From: Clostridiales bacterium
GTDB lineage: Bacteria; Bacillota; Clostridia; Oscillospirales; Oscillospiraceae
Reading direction: 5' to 3'
DNA: 35,774 nt
Assembly (NCBI GenBank): GCA_021202515.1
Contig: JAJQCW010000076.1
Span: 1 to 35,774, forward strand
Every line of letters starts with the position of its first letter. Position 1 is the stretch's first letter. The notes beneath the pieces were generated by a model. The model saw nothing but the letters and a program-made list of their open reading frames with translations, was not told the origin of the DNA and did not search any database. The position numbers and the translations under genes are program-made. Positions 2,871-13,837 of the stretch are shown here, one piece after another.

Positions 2871-3722
2871 ATGGGACGCTACGGCAAAGGCGGGGTTTTC
2901 GTCCGGGAGACCCGCACCTACTGCGGCGACGAGTATATGACAGTGGACGTTTTCCCCTATTCCGCCGAACAGGAAGACGCCGTCAGAAAGCCGCGCAAAA
3001 GGAGGGAGCAGGTTTCTCCGCCAAAACAACGAAACCTGAATGACCGGAACGCCAGACGCTACCTGGTTCAGTTGGGAAACGCCAACTTCGGGGAGGGCGA
3101 CCTGAGCGTTACATGTACTTATGACCGGCGACATCTTCCGACCACCCCGGAGGCGGCGGAAAAAGAGGCCCGGAATTTCCTGAACCGGGTCAAGTACGCC
3201 AGAAAGAAGGCGGGACTGGAACCGCTGAAATACATCCTGGTTTCTGAATATGGCACCCGCCGGGGAACAAACGAAATTATCCGGGTCCACCATCACATTA
3301 TCATGAACGGCGGACTGGATCGGGACGCGGTGGAAAACCTGTGGAGGGACAAACGGCGGAAAGGCGAAAAGCAGGGAGCACGAAAGGGTTTCTGTAATGC
3401 TGACCGGCTGCAACCGGAGGAAAACGGCATAGAAGCCCTGACCAGATACCTGACCAAAAACCCGAACGGAAAAAAACGCTGGTCCAGTTCCAAGAACCTA
3501 CGCAAGCCGGAGCGGGTGAAAAACGACCACAAATACTCCCGCCGGAAGCTGGAGCGAATCTGCTCTACCGGCGAAATCTATAACCGGGGGTTCTGGGAAA
3601 AGAGCTATCCGGGCTGGACACTGGCGGGGGCAGCGGAGTTCGCGGTGGAAGCGGACCCACCGGACGAACTGAACGGATGGCGATTGTACGCCAAACTGCG
3701 GAAAATCACGAGGAGATGGTGA
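2871..3722 (+). CDS. HUH-type replication initiator-like protein (REP_ORF2/G2P-like)
   Basis: The 283-residue protein carries the motif order of small HUH endonucleases. Residues 79-84 (SVTCTY) form the motif 1 strand. YILVSEYG (121-128) is followed by VHHHIIMNGG (139-148), the metal-binding histidine motif. Motif 3 is TRYLTKN (191-197), where Tyr193 with Lys196 gives the YxxK catalytic arrangement. The following RWSSSKNLRKPE resembles the RxWSxSKNLxxPE stretch usual in this family. Such proteins nick one strand to prime rolling-circle-type replication. In this phage it is probably the early replication initiator. ATG 2871 follows AAGAAAGG; the gene abuts the RecU-like gene (1-nt gap). Confidence 0.8.
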   Translation: MGRYGKGGVFVRETRTYCGDEYMTVDVFPYSAEQEDAVRKPRKRREQVSPPKQRNLNDRNARRYLVQLGNANFGEGDLSVTCTYDRRHLPTTPEAAEKEARNFLNRVKYARKKAGLEPLKYILVSEYGTRRGTNEIIRVHHHIIMNGGLDRDAVENLWRDKRRKGEKQGARKGFCNADRLQPEENGIEALTRYLTKNPNGKKRWSSSKNLRKPERVKNDHKYSRRKLERICSTGEIYNRGFWEKSYPGWTLAGAAEFAVEADPPDELNGWRLYAKLRKITRRW

Positions 3723-3723
3723 C

Positions 3724-4335
3724 GTGAGACTGGAATGGGAGGACCTGCCCTATCCCGTCCGGGAGCAGGCGGCAAAGCAGATTCTGGCCGACAAACGAAA
3801 ACAGACGGCGAAAAGCGCCAAGCAGTACCAGCGGACAAAGCAAGCGGCACAGGCCAACGCCGAGGGCCACCACTTCGAGGATGAAATCCTAAAAGCCTGC
3901 AAGTTCTACCGGGCAACCGGGCGAGCGTCGGTGGACAAGACGCCGGAGAGCTTCCGGGTGACAAAACTGCTGGGGAACGGAGCTTTTCAGGGAAGATTCA
4001 CAGGAAAGGCCCAGCCGGATTTTCAGGGCGTGTTGGACGGGGGACGGGCCATTCTGTTTGATGCCAAATACACGGGCAAAGACCGGATCAGTGCCAGCGC
4101 CCTGACCAAGCACCAGGCGGAACTGCTGGAAATCCACAGCCAACTGGGGGCGGTCTGCGGCGTGTGCGTGGGGATGCAGGACGGGACCTATTTCGTGCCG
4201 TGGGACACCTGGAAAGGGATGCAGGATGCCTACGGGCGAAAGTACATGACGAAAGAAGAACTGGAACCGTGGAGGCTGCAATTCAGCGTCCACTCTTTCG
4301 CCATGTTTCTGGACTATGAGGAGGGCAGCAAATGA
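3724..4335 (+). CDS. RecU-like Holliday junction resolvase
   Basis: The 203-residue protein contains a PD-(D/E)xK nuclease core: AQPDFQGV (D99), then AILFDAKYT (D113, K115) and TKHQAELL (Q131). This order and spacing match RecU / PBP-related factor A proteins of Gram-positive bacteria and their phages, which cut Holliday junctions during recombination and before packaging. The basic N-terminus (about 20-45) may be the flexible arm used by RecU to invade junctions. The start is GTG 3724, placed right after the stop of the initiator gene, with the GAGGAG inside that gene's end as ribosome site. Its end overlaps the next gene as ATGA. Confidence 0.75.
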   Translation: MRLEWEDLPYPVREQAAKQILADKRKQTAKSAKQYQRTKQAAQANAEGHHFEDEILKACKFYRATGRASVDKTPESFRVTKLLGNGAFQGRFTGKAQPDFQGVLDGGRAILFDAKYTGKDRISASALTKHQAELLEIHSQLGAVCGVCVGMQDGTYFVPWDTWKGMQDAYGRKYMTKEELEPWRLQFSVHSFAMFLDYEEGSK

Positions 4336-4985
4336 AAACGGCCAAAATCACCAAAATTCTGAAAGGCAGCAACCACGCAGAGGTTTTCCGCGCGGGCTAC
4401 TCAGACTTTGCGGGGGACGAACTGGCAGAGGAGGACGTGCAGCGGGGGAACGGGGCGCAGTGGCTTTCCAACGGGGCCGCCAGTTACCAAATGGATTCCA
4501 TGCCGCTGATTCGCAGCGTCGGGCAGTTTTGCGCCACTTTCGATGTACCAGAGAAGAAGCGGGAGAGTTTCTTTTTCCGGTTTTCCGGCCTACCGGAGTA
4601 CCTGCAATTCGAGCGGTGGGACCCCAGACTGGCAGGAGCAGTGCGACTACCGGTGTCGCTGGTGACGGACGACAGGCGCATTGAACTGTTCAGTTATGTG
4701 CACCCGGTCAACGGTCAGAGCCGAGTCATGTTCATTGACGCGCTCTACCTGACGCCTTTCGATGGGATGGACAACCTGACCTTCTGCGTGATGCAGGACA
4801 GGCTGGTGGTGTTCGACGGGGTGTTCACCTGCGCCGTGATCCATCCGATGGACATCCGGGACGATGAACTCTCCGCCGCCCTGATGCAGGCACAACGGGA
4901 GATTCAGCAGAGTTGCCGAGAGCGGGACTTCGAGATCACACAGCGGGAACGGAAGAACCGAGAAGCGAGGGGATTTGCCGACTGA
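4332..4985 (+). CDS. Phage hypothetical protein (early operon)
   Basis: I do not recognise this 217-residue protein. It appears mostly beta-rich, with alternating hydrophobic strands (VRLPVSLVTDD, VMFIDALYL, FCVMQDRLVVFDGVFT), and ends in a charged helix (QREIQQSCRERDFEITQRERKNRE) that could be a coiled coil. No catalytic motif, signal or membrane span is visible. It starts at ATG 4332 within the stop of the RecU-like gene (ATGA overlap) behind GAGGAGGGC, so coupled translation is expected. Its position among replication and recombination genes suggests a DNA-metabolism accessory role, but nothing in the sequence proves it. Confidence 0.7.
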   Translation: MKTAKITKILKGSNHAEVFRAGYSDFAGDELAEEDVQRGNGAQWLSNGAASYQMDSMPLIRSVGQFCATFDVPEKKRESFFFRFSGLPEYLQFERWDPRLAGAVRLPVSLVTDDRRIELFSYVHPVNGQSRVMFIDALYLTPFDGMDNLTFCVMQDRLVVFDGVFTCAVIHPMDIRDDELSAALMQAQREIQQSCRERDFEITQRERKNREARGFAD

Positions 4986-9369: not shown

Positions 9370-9533
9370 GATTCTTTCCCTCCTCGAGCGGATTCTGCAA
9401 ATTGGATCAAGAGCGATTTCGCCATGCGGTGGAGTTCTCTGTCAGCGTCACTCCGGCTGTGGCAGGATTTATAAAACAGCTCGCTTTCCACTTCCTGCAA
9501 CAGATTCATGATTCTTTTGTCGTCTGCGTTCAT
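9366..9533 (-). CDS. Hypothetical 55-aa helical protein
   Basis: The start at ATG 9533 has AAAGGAG eight bases upstream. The 55 residues (MNADDKRIMNLLQEVESELF at the start, RGGKES at the end) look fully helical and amphipathic, with DRELHRMAKSLLIQF in the middle. The stop TGA 9368-9366 overlaps the next gene's ATG by 2 nt. No family is recognised, but the ribosome site and the overlap make it a credible gene. Confidence 0.55.
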   Translation of the reverse strand: MNADDKRIMNLLQEVESELFYKSCHSRSDADRELHRMAKSLLIQFAESARGGKES

Positions 9534-9555
9534 GGGCGTTCTCCTTTTGTCAGAT

Positions 9556-9741
9556 TCAGATGATGATTTCGGCGGCGGTCAGTTCGGCGGTGGCCTCCAG
9601 TTTCGCCGGGGCTGCGGCAGCACTGCCGAACAGGGTTTTAATGGCCTTGCGGATGGCAGCGCCGCCGGTGGGGGCGACAACGTGGAGACAGTCCGTTTCT
9701 CCCGTGTGGCGGGACAGGGTGACGGTGTACAGGTTTCGCAT
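9556..9741 (-). CDS. Hypothetical 61-aa protein
   Basis: I place the start at ATG 9741, behind GGGGGGTGTG, just after the upstream gene's stop; an alternative ATG at 9756 would overlap that gene. The 61-residue product begins MRNLYTVTLSRHTGETDCLH and continues VVAPTGGAAIRKAIKTLFG. That is a beta-strand-first, helix-second fold with a glycine turn, followed by an alanine-rich tail. No family is recognised. Confidence 0.55.
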   Translation of the reverse strand: MRNLYTVTLSRHTGETDCLHVVAPTGGAAIRKAIKTLFGSAAAAPAKLEATAELTAAEIII

Positions 9742-9743
9742 AA

Positions 9744-9965
9744 TCACACCCCCCAAATCTCACCGGAGAGTTTGGCGTCAATTTCGACGGTGTAATAGTC
9801 CGTCAAAATCAGCTCCAACATGGAGCGCAAGCCGGTGAGATAAGCGGCCTGCTTCTTCCCGGCAACAGAGCGGGGATTTGTTGCTTTTTCGGCGGTTTCC
9901 TGGGCGCGGAGCATCCGCAGGGCGGCCTCCAGCGTTTCCGGTCTGATCTTAGTTTCGCTTATCAT
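9744..9965 (-). CDS. Hypothetical 73-aa helical protein
   Basis: The 73-residue protein begins MISETKIRPETLEAALRMLR and appears all-alpha, with a second helix SVAGKKQAAYLTGLRSMLEL. Its ribosome site GGAGG lies at the end of structured repeat copy A, 7 nt upstream of ATG 9965. It is the first gene downstream of the repeat series when read leftward. No function can be assigned. Confidence 0.6.
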   Translation of the reverse strand: MISETKIRPETLEAALRMLRAQETAEKATNPRSVAGKKQAAYLTGLRSMLELILTDYYTVEIDAKLSGEIWGV

Positions 9966-9974
9966 AGCGTAGCC

Positions 9975-10043
9975 TCCATTTCGTGGGGTGGTTTCTGGTT
10001 TCGCGGGCCTCTGGCCCTCACTCCCGCCCGCCGGTTTCGGCGG
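9975..10043 (-). repeat. Structured intergenic repeat, copy A
   Basis: Copy A of a five-member repeat, read leftward. A short hairpin, CGCC-GAAACC-GGCG, is followed by GGGAGTGAGG, then the triloop hairpin GGGCC-AGA-GGCCC, then CGAAACCAGAAACCACCCC and GAAATGGAGG with the next ribosome site. Its first part is also the coding end of the 34-aa gene, and the left arm of the main stem is truncated. Confidence 0.85.
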
Positions 10044-10122
10044 CGAGCTGGAGCAGGGGTTTCACGGCCCGGTAATTGACGCCGCTGTGCCGCGCCTGGT
10101 CAAAAGATTTCTGTTTCTGCAT
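10018..10122 (-). CDS. 34-aa basic microprotein ending inside repeat A
   Basis: ATG 10122 has GGAGG seven bases upstream. The 34-residue product begins MQKQKSFDQARHSGVNYRAV and ends LAAETGGRE with a TGA inside repeat copy A. It is basic and probably helical, with no recognised family. The gene lies between repeat copies B and A, making it the shortest 'cassette' of the series. Its last five codons are supplied by the conserved hairpin sequence. Confidence 0.5.
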   Translation of the reverse strand: MQKQKSFDQARHSGVNYRAVKPLLQLAAETGGRE

Positions 10123-10135
10123 GGTGTTACCTCCA

Positions 10136-10201
10136 ATTAGTTTCGTAGGGTCTGGCCCTCACTCCCGCCCGCCGGTTTCGGCGGGCAGGGTCAAGGTCAG
10201 C
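10136..10201 (-). repeat. Structured intergenic repeat, copy B
   Basis: Copy B starts right after the stop of the clamp-like gene. Read leftward it has CTGACCTTGAC, then the 10-bp stem CCTGCCCGCC / GGCGGGCGGG with loop GAAACC. GAGTGAGGGCCAGACCC follows, a weakened second hairpin, and then the ribosome site of the 34-aa gene. Confidence 0.85.
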
Positions 10202-10204
10202 AGA

Positions 10205-10921
10205 TCAGGCGGCGGCCCGTTTCTGGAGCCGGACCGGGAGCAAAATCCCGTCGCCGTTTTCGGCGGTGAAATAGATGGGGCTGATAGGGGACGTGGCGCG
10301 GGCGGTGCAGCCGGGCAGCGCCTGGAGCATGTCCAGCAAATACTGCGGATTCACGCCGATTTCCATTTTCCCGGCGTGGAGGCGGTAAGGGTTGCCCTTG
10401 CACCACTCTTTGCCACATTCCGCCTTTTGGACGGCGATCCACGTTTTCAGTTCCGGGACGGCGGGCAGGTCCACTAGCTCCCCGGCGGTGGGATCGGGGA
10501 AAATCTCGTCAAGGTTGATCCGCCGGGAAACGTTATCCGGGCTGTTGTCAGCGTGAGACAGACTGGGAACATCGTCATTCAGCCGGACGGCGCGGAAGCC
10601 GTCGCAGATGCACCACTTCCCCTGCTGGAGGAACATGCCCTGATGCCAGGGCCTCCCCTTGCTATTGGTGAAGGCGTCCTTGTTGATTCGCTTCAAGGCG
10701 GCCAGCGTTCCGGCGGGTTTCCCGGCAGAATCCATGCGGCCTTGAATTTCGGTGATCAGCCGGGCGGCGTTCCAGTAGAAGGGCAGAAACAAAGCGGCCT
10801 TTTCGTCCTCCGCCCAACTCCCCGGATTCGCCAGGACATCGGCGGCGCCGCTGGCGCCGGTGGCGCGGTCGTGCTCGTAGAGCATGGCCGCAATAGTTTT
10901 CAACATGGTTTCGTTTGTCAT
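10205..10921 (-). CDS. Sliding-clamp (DnaN) C-terminal-like protein
   Basis: This 238-residue protein ends with IGVNPQYLLDMLQAL, SPISPIYF and GDGILLPVRLQ. That is the pattern of the last domain of bacterial beta clamps (Y-L-D-x-L, S-P-I, then a terminal PVRL-type strand). An upstream WCICDGFRAVRL resembles the clamp's 'TDGxRL' strand. It is much shorter than DnaN (about 370 residues), so it would be a reduced clamp-like protein or a clamp mimic; I cannot tell which. The N-terminal 60 residues are helical. ATG 10921 has GGAGG upstream, inside repeat C's leader; the stop lies at the edge of repeat B. Confidence 0.45.
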   Translation of the reverse strand: MTNETMLKTIAAMLYEHDRATGASGAADVLANPGSWAEDEKAALFLPFYWNAARLITEIQGRMDSAGKPAGTLAALKRINKDAFTNSKGRPWHQGMFLQQGKWCICDGFRAVRLNDDVPSLSHADNSPDNVSRRINLDEIFPDPTAGELVDLPAVPELKTWIAVQKAECGKEWCKGNPYRLHAGKMEIGVNPQYLLDMLQALPGCTARATSPISPIYFTAENGDGILLPVRLQKRAAA

Positions 10922-10930
10922 GGTGTTTCC

Positions 10931-11016
10931 TCCATTTCACGGGGTGGTTTCTGGTTTCGTGGGCCTCTGGCCCTCACTCCCGCCCGCCGGTTTCGACGGA
11001 CAGGGTCAAGGTCAGC
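10931..11016 (-). repeat. Structured intergenic repeat, copy C
   Basis: Copy C follows the 74-aa gene. Read leftward: CTGACCTTGAC, main stem CCTGTCCGTC / GGCGGGCGGG (still pairing through G-T pairs) with loop GAAACC, the second hairpin GGGCC-AGA-GGCCC, then CGAAACCAGAAACCACCCC and GAAATGGAGG. The last portion is almost identical to copy A, including the ribosome site. Confidence 0.85.
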
Positions 11017-11023
11017 GGGTTTC

Positions 11024-11248
11024 CTATGCCGTTTCCGGCCACTCGACGCCGACAACGGCGGTTTCGCGGGGCGTCTGGGTGGCGATGTACTGACGGCAAG
11101 CGTCAAGGTCGGTACAATGCCGCCCGGTGCCACAATACCACCAGGTCCGCCCGCCGTCCACAGAGCGGAAAACCTGGACATTAAACCAGCGGTTGCCGTC
11201 CACGGGGAGAGACAACTTAGAAACGCAAAATTTCGTAAGGGTTTTCAT
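11024..11248 (-). CDS. Hypothetical 74-aa protein
   Basis: The 74-residue protein begins MKTLTKFCVSKLSLPVDGNR and continues with a tryptophan-rich beta region (FNVQVFRSVDGGRTWWYCGT). A short helix (DLDACRQYIATQ) and a final strand (AVVGVEWPETA) follow. It has the look of a small single-domain alpha/beta protein, but I recognise no family. GGAGG stands 7 nt before ATG 11248. It lies between repeat copies D and C. Confidence 0.6.
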   Translation of the reverse strand: MKTLTKFCVSKLSLPVDGNRWFNVQVFRSVDGGRTWWYCGTGRHCTDLDACRQYIATQTPRETAVVGVEWPETA

Positions 11249-11274
11249 GGGGGTTCCTCCTGTTTCACCTTGTG

Positions 11275-11360
11275 ATTTCGGGGCTTCTGGCCCTCACTCC
11301 CGCCCGCCGGTTTCGGCGGGTAGGGTCAAGGTCAGCCGGTTTCCCGGCGGAGCGGATCAC
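11275..11360 (-). repeat. Structured intergenic repeat, copy D
   Basis: Copy D includes the stop codon of the J-domain gene. Read leftward: ATCCGCTCC, a small hairpin GCCGG-GAAA-CCGGC, TGACCTTGAC, main stem CCTACCCGCC (11324-11315) / GGCGGGCGGG (11308-11299) with one mismatch, loop GAAACC, and a weaker second hairpin GGGCCAGAAGCCC. The ATCCGCTCC start is shared only with copy E. Confidence 0.85.
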
Positions 11361-11824
11361 GCCGGAACAGGGGCATTGTCATCGGCGGAGAGGACGCGGG
11401 AGCCGTACCGGGAGCGGATTTCTTGCATAGAAGCGGAGCGGCGGCGGGGTTTGCGGGGTTCATCGCTGGGGTGCCAATACCACTGTTTCTTTTTGGCAGC
11501 CCAGCGGAAACCGACAGCCTTCAAACTGTCTTTGACGGGGCGAGTGTCGCCGGAGACCCACAGCCAGCGCCCGCACAGCTCGACGGTGACGCCCTGGCAG
11601 CGGATCGCCACGTCAACGGCCCGCATATATTCGGCGGTAGCTTCGGCGGTTTCGGCGGTGGTTTCGCCCTGGTTCATGGCGTCGCAGGCGGCGGCATACT
11701 GCCGGTTGATCTCCTTCATGGTTTCCTGGTCGCCGCCCCGGTCCGGGTGGTGGAGCTTGGAGAGCCGGAAAAACTCCTTCTTCAGTTCGTCGGCGGTGGT
11801 GCAGTTAGCAAAATAGTTCGTCAT
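11357..11824 (-). CDS. J-domain (DnaJ-like) protein
   Basis: The 155-residue protein begins MTNYFANCTTADELKKEFFR. LSKLHHPDRGGDQETMKEIN follows, a J-domain with the HPD motif at residues 26-28 that stimulates Hsp70 (DnaK) ATPase. The C-terminal part contains GRWLWVSGDTRPVKDSLKAV and GFRWAAKKKQWYWHP, a conserved tail seen in J-domain proteins of mobile elements, and ends with basic residues. A phage-encoded co-chaperone could redirect host DnaK to replication or assembly complexes, but the target is unknown. AAAGGAG precedes ATG 11824; the frame's upstream extension runs through repeat E and is not used. Confidence 0.8.
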   Translation of the reverse strand: MTNYFANCTTADELKKEFFRLSKLHHPDRGGDQETMKEINRQYAAACDAMNQGETTAETAEATAEYMRAVDVAIRCQGVTVELCGRWLWVSGDTRPVKDSLKAVGFRWAAKKKQWYWHPSDEPRKPRRRSASMQEIRSRYGSRVLSADDNAPVPA

Positions 11825-11852
11825 GATAAAAACTCCTTTCGGGTGTTGGTGG

Positions 11853-11941
11853 TGGTTTTGTGGGCCTCTGGCCCTCACTCCCGCCCGCCATGTACTGACG
11901 AGCGGGGTCAAGGTCAGCCGAATTCCTGACGGAGCGGATTA
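11853..11941 (-). repeat. Structured intergenic repeat, copy E (most divergent)
   Basis: Copy E begins at the stop of the secreted-protein gene. Read leftward: ATCCGCTCC, hairpin GTCAG / CTGAC around GAATTCGG, CTTGAC, then the main stem CCCGCTCGTC / GGCGGGCGGG with loop AGTACAT. Although the left arm and loop differ from the other copies, all 10 pairs are kept (two G-T). GGGCC-AGA-GGCCC follows. Pairing is conserved while sequence changes. Confidence 0.8.
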
Positions 11942-12241
11942 CTCGCCCCAGGTCTCCACCTGGACGCCGTAGCGCTCCAGGCCGGTGCCGTCGCCGTAGC
12001 TGATCTCAAAGTCAACGGCGTTTTCGGTGCCATCCTCGCTGGCGTAGACGTGCAAGCCGTAAATCGTATCACAGCAACCGTCATCATATCCGTCGGAGTA
12101 GGCGGCGGCGATCTCCTGGGCGGCGGTCTGCGTGGCGGCCTGGGTGCCTGCCTGGTAGCCTGCGCCGTGTCCGGCAGCAAAAGCGGCTGCGCCGATGGTC
12201 AGGGCCGCGCCAACGGCGGCCAGTGTGTGGGTGATTTTCAT
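11939..12241 (-). CDS. Small secreted or membrane-anchored protein
   Basis: The 100-residue product starts at ATG 12241, behind GAGAGGAG. Residues 1-20 (MKITHTLAAVGAALTIGAAA) form a short basic N-end plus hydrophobic core like a signal peptide, with a possible signal-peptidase site after AFA. The next segment is glycine/alanine rich (GHGAGYQAGTQAATQ). The remainder is acidic and contains a CC pair (DGCCDTIYGLHVYASEDG). It may instead stay anchored by the N-terminal helix. It has no known family. Repeat copy E follows its stop. Confidence 0.6.
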   Translation of the reverse strand: MKITHTLAAVGAALTIGAAAFAAGHGAGYQAGTQAATQTAAQEIAAAYSDGYDDGCCDTIYGLHVYASEDGTENAVDFEISYGDGTGLERYGVQVETWGE

Positions 12242-12442
12242 AATGCTATCTCCTCTCTGTGTGTCCCGGCGGCGCCGGGCATGTGTGGATGTGATCCATG
12301 AGCGCCGCCCCTTGCGGGGCGCTGGACTTGCACCAGCCACGCCAGCGGCGCGGGCCTTGCGGATTGCTTGACAGGAAGGGGGAAACCGTGGTATACTCTC
12401 AACAACCGGAGCCGCCGCGTCAACAGCGGCCCCGGCGGGCGT
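12242..12442. other. 200-nt intergenic stretch with two GC-rich hairpins
   Basis: Between the 32-aa and the secreted-protein genes I find no credible gene or tRNA. It holds two stems: CCCGGC-GGC-GCCGGG (12265-12279), and one pairing the GCGCCGCCCC region at 12302-12311 with GGGGCGC near 12316-12322. A rightward promoter lies at 12368-12397. In the leftward mRNA the hairpins stand just upstream of the secreted-protein ribosome site. Confidence 0.55.
12368..12397 (+). promoter_or_regulatory. Strong rightward promoter antisense to the leftward operon
   Basis: TTGACA (12368-12373) and TATACT (12392-12397) are 18 bp apart. The -35 is perfect and the -10 differs from TATAAT at one position. It points against the surrounding leftward genes, and an intrinsic terminator stands about 190 nt downstream with no rightward gene in between. 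Confidence 0.65.
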
Positions 12443-12541
12443 TTACCTAGCCTTGAAAGCTGTGGTCAACGCCTCATGGAGGTCTGGGAACACGATACCG
12501 TTCAAGTACCACGTGCCGTCCTCCCGCTTGAGAGTGAACAC
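12443..12541 (-). CDS. 32-aa microprotein, first gene of leftward operon
   Basis: On the minus strand GTG 12541 follows GGGAGG by about 9 nt and opens 32 codons to TAA 12445-12443. The peptide begins MFTLKREDGTWYLNGIVFPD and ends LHEALTTAFKAR: two short beta strands with an aromatic turn and then an amphipathic helix. That reads like a folded small protein rather than chance sequence. It is not hydrophobic, so a type I membrane toxin is unlikely. It is the first gene after the leftward promoter at 12741-12712 and lies opposite the candidate antisense RNA. Confidence 0.5.
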   Translation of the reverse strand: MFTLKREDGTWYLNGIVFPDLHEALTTAFKAR

Positions 12542-12558
12542 CGCGTTTCACCTCCCCG

Positions 12559-12594
12559 CCCTTGCCTGCGCTTTCAGGCAAGGGCTTTTCTTTT
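12559..12594 (+). terminator. Intrinsic terminator (rightward)
   Basis: A perfect 10-bp stem CCCTTGCCTG / CAGGCAAGGG with a 6-nt loop is followed by CTTTTCTTTT. The T-tract is on the plus strand only, so it ends rightward transcription (the candidate antisense RNA). In the leftward mRNA the same hairpin sits just before the ribosome site of the 32-aa gene. Confidence 0.85.
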
Positions 12595-12711
12595 CGGCTT
12601 TTCAACCCGATTGGTATTTGGCCGCCAACCGTCGCCGCCGGGAAACTCTAGGCCCTTCCAGCCGGGCCGCTGTTGCTTACGTGGTGTCCCACGTCTTGCT
12701 TGCATGGCCGT

Positions 12712-13353: not shown

Positions 13354-13643
13354 CACGGGCCAGCAGCGCCCACACGCCCACGCAGCCACACAGCAGCAGG
13401 CCACACAGCGCCCACACGGACACACAGCAGCCGGGCCAGGCCCACGCCGCCAGACAGTAGCCAGGGCAGGGCAAGGGCAGGCAGGCCGGGGCCAGCAGCA
13501 CCGCGCCCACACGGACACACCGCCACACAGCAGCCAGGTCAGCAGCGCCACGCCACGCCACCGCCAGGCAGTAGCCAGGGCAGGCAGGCCAGGGCCAGGG
13601 CCGGAGACGGGCCGAACAAGGACACCAGGGCGGCGACGCGCCC
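13354..13643 (+). other. T-depleted, repeat-rich block
   Basis: In these 290 nt the plus strand has only three T residues (13458, 13539, 13572). The remainder is about 40% C with A and G sharing the rest. Imperfect internal repeats are visible: GCGCCCACACGGACACAC-like units, ACACAGCAGCC, and CAGTAGCCAGGGCAGG near 13455 and 13570. The edges resemble each other (TGTCAAAAATCT at 13321 and TGTCTAAAAATCT at 13649). A C-rich, U-free transcript would suit Rho loading; a packaging or structural-RNA role is also conceivable. Confidence 0.7.
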
Positions 13644-13786: not shown

Positions 13787-13837
13787 CATATGGGGGTCCC
13801 CAAAAAAACAACGGAAACGCCATGCGGGGAGTGAAAG

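Follow-up and report, generated by a model that had tools for sequence, protein, structure and literature searches.

Few classes of natural self-cleaving ribozymes are known, and we know of no established reason for the ribozyme arrays that phages carry in their intergenic gaps. The RAGATH motifs of Weinberg and colleagues are reportedly structured RNAs defined by their association with ribozyme-linked genes. Searches near ribozyme-associated genes have led to new ribozyme classes (PMC4604425, PMC4604424). Hammerheads are clustered in polycistronic transcripts, phage-related ones included; three such arrangements cut polycistronic RNA during in vitro transcription and one, around a phage-linked Agrobacterium gene, also cuts in E. 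coli (PMC3088659). The twister-sister-like LINE-1 and OR4K15 ribozymes show that cleavage is possible in an RNA built of two stems with a conserved internal-loop region between them (PMC11620745). Here we compare with these systems an RNA element that likewise has two stems and, between them, a conserved internal loop, and which is repeated five times in the window, by which we mean the whole contig JAJQCW010000076.1 (contig 16, 35,774 nucleotides (nt)) of a Clostridiales bacterium from the Oscillospiraceae (assembly GCA_021202515.1, here G000; genome size 2,626,628 bases).

The repeats occupy the gaps in a series of small phage genes in which a known ribozyme also stands. We lean towards the interpretation that the element is a transcript-level processing RNA, most likely a small self-cleaving ribozyme of a class outside Rfam. 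We regard as evenly balanced the more specific proposal that it represents a new structural class of about 50 nt, with one asymmetric loop (YUGAC / AGUGAR) and two freely varying helices, which unrelated phages would use interchangeably with hammerhead, twister and twister-sister ribozymes for cutting the transcripts of accessory genes at the borders of cistrons.

Searching the whole genome with the pattern GAGTGAGGGCCAGA, allowing at most one mismatch, gave five sites, all of them in the window and on the minus strand. A preliminary description of this DNA had reported five copies in like orientation, which is correct for the sites; only four copies (B to E) are intact and A is a half copy. 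The scores below are those of R2, a covariance model made from 15 copies.

11867..11919, minus strand: element E, intact, between the secreted-protein and J-domain genes (70.9 bits, E 2.4e-18 with cmsearch)
11286..11337, minus strand: element D, intact, after the J-domain gene (68.8 bits)
10966..11017, minus strand: element C, intact (69.1 bits)
10151..10202, minus strand: element B, intact (72.9 bits)
10010..10061, minus strand: copy A, half copy, by sequence and fold (24.0 bits)

On the minus strand the intact copies read CUGACCUUGACC, then a hairpin, then AGUGAGGGCCAGA. Copy A has retained the 3' arm and the inner stem, while its 5' arm, which fails to match CTGACCYTGACC, is now coding sequence of a 34-codon open reading frame (ORF). 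Each copy had been said to follow directly on a stop codon and to precede the next ribosome site. Such a position holds for B to E, where the stop codon ends 4–21 nt before CTGACC and the next start codon lies 28–44 nt past the core, but not for A, inside which the 34-codon ORF ends.

All copies share one fold, composed of an outer helix P1, an internal loop with YUGAC opposite AGUGAR and, further in, a hairpin P2 whose sequence varies with pairing kept. The helix is longer than was stated: CTGACC pairs with GGCCAG around the internal loop, which makes the element a single hairpin of about 52 nt. A small GGGCC-AGA-GGCCC hairpin, previously taken for a second shared feature, has its full 5 base pairs in only four of the 17 copies (A, C, E and the one in G017) and 2–4 in the other 13; it is therefore not a conserved feature and was dropped from the core.

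The structure CUG(A)CCYU(G)AC-P2-(A)GU(G)AR-GG(C)CAG was tested on 15 copies (all except A and G740), to which the following numbers refer. Standard pairs fill 94.6% of the cells, as compared with 77.5% in shuffled alignments (0 of 500 as high) and 34–50% when the structure is slid; 41 cells are changed on both sides (10.0 in shuffles, 0 of 500 as high), and ten pairs show such a double change (6.3 in shuffles, 3 of 500 as high). From this excess we conclude that the structure is not due to chance and that pairing is maintained where the sequence differs, as had been claimed. All ten double-changed pairs are in P2, and the seven pairs of the conserved arms are invariant and hence uninformative on pairing. 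Columns 9/47 hold U.G in ten copies, C.A in four and C-G in one (Fisher p 0.004, the relatedness of the copies being ignored), which fits a wobble-shaped pair; if the element is a new ribozyme class, this loop-adjacent pair would belong to the active fold as an isosteric wobble. A.C at 6/50 and G.G at 11/45 do not vary. A kink-turn, with tandem G.A pairs after a 3-nt bulge next to a C helix, would fit UGA/AGUGA in part; this reading is weakened by the pair beside the bulge (columns 14-41), which is nonstandard in six of the 15 copies, and by G740, where the G is changed.

Variation in P1 is confined to G740 and L249. The G740 copy has UGUG/CACA in the outer helix instead of UCUG/CAGA and, in addition, U-A instead of C13-G43. 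L249 (15314-15367, minus strand, of G269:C1, about 10 kb from the copy shared by L026 and the prophage of Flavonifractor sp. An82 and on the same strand) has a wholly different outer helix, CUUAAUG/CAUUAAG, around UUGAC...GAUGAG, the loop form of copy L025_1, and was matched by R2 with E 0.02. The same internal core within an unrelated outer helix hints at a wider family. A descriptor with fixed YUGAC and AGUGAR/GAUGAR and two helices of any sequence gave 15 distinct hits in 1.60 Mb of collected DNA, namely L249 and all of the 17 copies except A, L078_1 and G740, and none in each of three Markov controls. Most of this DNA was collected because of the element, so that the count is no survey; the controls tell us no more than that chance hits of the descriptor are rare.

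In all, 17 copies are known from nine phage or prophage loci: five in the window and 12 at eight other loci (G017, G064, G740, L025, L026/G269, L083, L085 and L086), to which come a decayed copy in G206 and the core-only variant L249. The pattern matched in 13 of 148 related genomes and yielded one true second genome, G017; pattern searches of IMG/VR led to L025 (three copies), L026, L083, L085 and L086. The covariance-model search called for in the preliminary description did extend the family beyond the window, and showed the element to be rare. R1, a model from nine copies, matched 56 of 400 genomes of the same family at E up to 0.1 and four (G000, G017, G269 and G064) at E below 1e-7, those in G064 (three copies) and G269 being new finds; the G269 copy is the same as that of L026. 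With R2, 394 genomes of the order gave G000, G017, G269 and one divergent copy in G740 (E 7.8e-6), 398 genomes of the phylum gave no match outside G000, and 87 genomes of the family of G740 gave G740 alone.

Four of the other 52 genomes matched by R1 were inspected. In G385, G053 and G422 the match was read as chance. G206 contains at L080, 3226-3278 on the plus strand, a decayed relative of the An82 copy, homologous at 86% over 136 nt, which has lost the 5' arm and retained the 3' arm and stem, and in this resembles copy A. Of 20 loci from a pattern search of genome contigs, L034 (the G017 locus) and L045 (the An82 prophage) fold, on our reading, as the element and the other 18 do not; L038, L036 and L028, among these 18, reach 19–27 bits with R1 because the pattern itself matches. 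L027, L084, L182 and L183 were judged to be chance matches. The relaxed pattern GACCYTGACC...AGTGARGG occurred in 102 IMG/VR stretches; among its 122 matches in retrieved loci (overlapping loci counted) all 20 with a stem score of at least 6 also had CT...CCA, and of the remainder, otherwise discarded as chance matches, two with a score of 5 are true copies (D of the window and L078_1). Searched with blastn against the phage collection, element E gave nine records, none covering more than 28% of the query; tblastn of the secreted-protein gene and of the G017 gene against that collection gave no match.

Neighboring genes were sought for 16 copies (all except G740) on the strand of the element, with ATG as the only start codon. 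In 14 of them the end of the upstream stop codon falls in the range from 21 nt ahead of CUGACC to 4 nt inside it, the exceptions being A and L026, for which this ATG-only search called no gene; in six copies the UGA of CUGACC is itself the stop codon. The ORF upstream of L078_2 has 22 codons. The next start codons follow 27–101 nt beyond the element.

The element is associated with known ribozymes. Rfam matches are one twister-sister ribozyme in the window, three behind the element in G017, type II hammerhead (RF02276) in G064, and twister-P5 (RF02684) in intergenic gaps near the element in L025 and L085; at gathering level a known ribozyme is present beside the element at six of the nine loci. 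Whole genomes were then counted, the best 137–150 candidates of each bacterial genome being scored: twister-sister occurs once in G000 (the sole family match found there), three times in G017 and once in G740, type II hammerhead twice in G064 (one hit below threshold, with 34 bits against a cut-off of 37), and neither in G269. All seven of these hits, in four of the five element-bearing whole genomes, lie 0.37–1.99 kb from an element and on the same strand. Fourteen control genomes had no twister-sister and no type II hammerhead; in the family as a whole, at E up to 1e-5, they were found in 8 and 11 of 260 genomes, respectively, G000, G017 and G064 included. The mRNA-processing role suggested in the preliminary description is supported by this context, the element sharing gene series, strand and intergenic positions with twister-sister, type II hammerhead and twister-P5; processing itself is an inference.

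Several side observations concern such loci. G292 (G292:C1:490847-491643), G289, G210 and G156 have 2–5 twister-sister or type II hammerhead hits per contig, several within about 1 kb, so that ribozyme-punctuated operons look common in this family. In L025, at about 9050-9000 on the minus strand, an intergenic hammerhead-like sequence with CUGAAUGA (an inserted A, by eye) lies near two copies of the element; it has no Hammerhead_3 match at E up to 1, and the record has no Hammerhead_II match. L086 contains upstream of its element copy a second intergenic repeat (GGTCCTGGAGGGTCCACCCG..AAAGGCCCTTCTCCA, by eye; about 11735-11775 and 12036-12075, plus strand), possibly another unnamed structured RNA, without Rfam match at E up to 10. 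In L024, at about 3390-4560 on the plus strand, repeated GGTGAAATTTTT..CCCGG-like stretches are seen by eye between and after genes behind the G017 twister-sister copies.

The element and a known ribozyme also replace each other after two homologous genes. The gene series of the window, which reads leftward, comprises on the minus strand:

12289..12367: twister-sister ribozyme, just ahead of the first gene (71.3 bits with Rfam RF02681, whose gathering score is 34)
11939..12241: secreted-protein gene, 100 amino acids, upstream of element E, with a homolog in G740; no Pfam match
11357..11824: J-domain gene, 155 amino acids, between E and D (Pfam DnaJ, E 2.3e-6, 28 bits, cut-off 27.8)
11024..11248: ORF for 74 amino acids, between D and C; no Pfam match
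10205..10921: gene for 238 amino acids, between C and B, resembling in its C-terminal stretch a DNA polymerase processivity factor (PHROG 947, E 1.3e-7); no Pfam match
10018..10122: 34-codon ORF, between B and A, its stop falling within copy A
9744..9965: ORF for 73 amino acids, after copy A; no Pfam match

The J-domain gene is followed by element D in the window and by a type II hammerhead in G064 (35% identity over 156 amino acids, E 9.9e-30), where the hit begins 2 nt past the stop codon. Likewise, the secreted-protein gene is followed by element E in the window, and its homolog in G740 (41% over 82 amino acids, E 5.5e-12) runs directly into a twister-sister ribozyme. In a third homologous pair, from G017 and G064 (43%, E 5.7e-31), the element is present in both, in G064 after a 22-codon ORF.

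The element differs from the known ribozymes in several respects. In Rfam 15, searched with window positions 9900-12400 at E up to 10, no family came near its cut-off on the element; isrK at 11227-11320, which overlaps D, scored 16 bits against a cut-off of 50, and HTT-AS1_3, on the opposite strand, 15.2 against 70. Twister-sister, like the element, stands behind stop codons within this gene series; the loop sequences of twister-sister and its relatives differ on reading, and the Rfam model finds the copy at 12289-12367 but not the repeats. The hammerhead takes the position after the J-domain gene in G064, whereas the element is one hairpin with no three-way junction and without the CUGANGA/GAAA core of hammerheads. 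Twister-P5 occupies neighboring gaps in L025 and L085, but its model does not match the element. None of the RAGATH motifs in Rfam 15 matches either; a RAGATH motif outside Rfam could be the same thing. Open-access papers containing core strings of the element are unrelated to it by title and beginning of the abstract, and among the papers listed by further searches none describes it by title; an earlier unnamed listing is possible, for instance among 3161 microbiome candidates (PMC8040213).

In context and architecture the element agrees with what is expected of ribozymes, a conserved core lying between helices of which P2 varies in sequence with pairing kept; cleavage itself is a proposal. 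As we picture it, the element would act in cis in the presumably common transcript, between the genes of phage accessory operons. P1 and the freely varying hairpin P2 would hold the conserved asymmetric loop, in which YUGAC is opposite to AGUGAR (or GAUGAR), and the loop would cut one phosphodiester bond, probably to the advantage of the phage, and so part neighboring cistrons after transcription, leaving structured ends as expected of the adjacent hammerhead, twister and twister-sister ribozymes.

Several findings weigh against this proposal. The chance product for the ribozyme association, about 1e-11 with each genome taken as one draw, overstates the case, since G017, G064 and G740 carry phages that share 32, 18 and 12 protein frames with the window in the retrieved stretches (L025 shares three and L085 four) and are thus not independent draws. 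At three of the nine loci, L026/G269, L083 and L086, the stretch searched with Rfam gave no ribozyme at gathering level, and the genome or record gave no hit to RF02681, RF02276, RF02684 or RF00008; none of 28 further twister-sister or type II hammerhead loci from 15 genomes, searched with filters off, contains the element. It is likewise missing from all 13 IMG/VR loci found by J-domain proteins, most of which match only part of the protein. Homologs that lack the repeat, a result which the preliminary description had named as refuting its own reading, do occur: in L199, whose J-domain protein is 41% identical over almost its full length, the stop codon of the gene and the following start codon are 11 nt apart, and two phage records found with tblastn of the J-domain gene also leave no room for the element or a ribozyme. 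The gene can therefore do without the element. In G740, 3 of the 11 nucleotides of the loop are altered; most of the core can be drawn as a Watson-Crick helix, which is unusual for a ribozyme core, and binding of a sequence-specific protein would give a similar picture.

A rival explanation is a protein-dependent hairpin for processing or stabilizing mRNA, in which a host RNase or RNA-binding protein recognizes the arms, cuts or protects the RNA and so sets the cistron levels. A long stable hairpin after stop codons with conserved sequence within its paired arms agrees with this, as do copy L025_2 and the G740 copy, behind which no nearby gene of that series is seen by eye. In the retrieved stretches each protein frame of the window has matches (E 1e-4) in at most three of the eight other element loci, so that a common phage-encoded partner is not seen and a host partner is possible. 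We nevertheless think this explanation unlikely, because the element interchanges with self-cleaving ribozymes after homologous genes and because it is rare for the site of a widespread host protein, being found in only four of the 400 family genomes. A transcription terminator or plain translational spacer, for which the hairpin after stop codons might be taken, is highly improbable: within 20 nt past the core there is no T-tract (at most 4 T per 8 in the 17 copies), a terminator scan of 9400-12600 gave a single minus-strand site (9826-9812) away from the elements, and the core sequence is far too conserved.

Two further explanations place the function in the DNA. The element could be a recombination site which, folded as a single strand like integron attC, let genes be collected one by one, as the preliminary description had suggested. 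It resembles attC in being an imperfect hairpin 3' of genes, with bulge and mismatches and a variable inner stem; copies A and C share flanks, as do D and E, and turnover beside the element is real in one comparison. L083 and L085 have a common promoter region with its ribosome site (83% over 101 nt), then unrelated genes, and their homology resumes 13 nt before CUGACC and spans the element and the downstream gene (91% over 549 nt). The gene set is thus exchangeable, as expected of a collected one, but the break falls outside the element, which remains attached to the downstream gene, and this comparison reveals no recombination at the element. Moreover, the attC boxes (RYYYAAC...GTTRRRY) are absent from both strands of all 17 copies with 10-nt flanks, the positions of the element are shared with ribozymes, and in the variable stem G-U cells outnumber A-C cells by 18 to 5 (distinct events 13 to 5, p 0.10), which points to the transcript strand. 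We therefore consider an attC-like site very improbable. Even less probability remains for a single-stranded DNA hairpin, REP- or origin-like, recognized by the HUH Rep protein of the phage. The window does encode such a Rep (Pfam PF23343, positions 2871-3719, E 4.1e-10), with homologs in G017, G064 and G740, hence at four of the nine element loci, which belong to related phages; none was found at E up to 10 at the other five, i.e., in L025 (51 kb), L085 (17 kb), L086 (28 kb), L083 (11 kb) and 110 kb around the G269 copy, records that may be incomplete.

The proposed processing RNA is a compact candidate that comes with natural replacement pairs: one and the same gene has the element behind it in one phage, a hammerhead or twister-sister in another. 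Should it cleave, about 11 loop nucleotides would form a catalytic core of a new kind; should it not, a different kind of element stands in the place of a ribozyme. Either way, such gene series are productive ground for the discovery of functional RNAs. The element itself, which is small, strongly conserved and placed where known self-cutting RNAs are found in related phages, may be a novel self-cutting or cut-marking RNA.

The phage in the window is contractile-tailed, with terminase, portal, head maturation protease, major head protein, tail sheath and tape measure genes assigned by PHROGs, and the small-gene series is located to the left of the terminase genes. Its HUH-type Rep gene, on the plus strand, adjoins ParB- and RecU-like genes. 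Immediately before the gene of the terminase small subunit (13366-13598) there are low-complexity direct repeats of the CACACAGCAGCC type, and a 38-nt repeat (AAGATTGCCGGTCATTGCCGG...) occurs three times among the rightward genes, at 13835, 16578 and 24696 on the plus strand.

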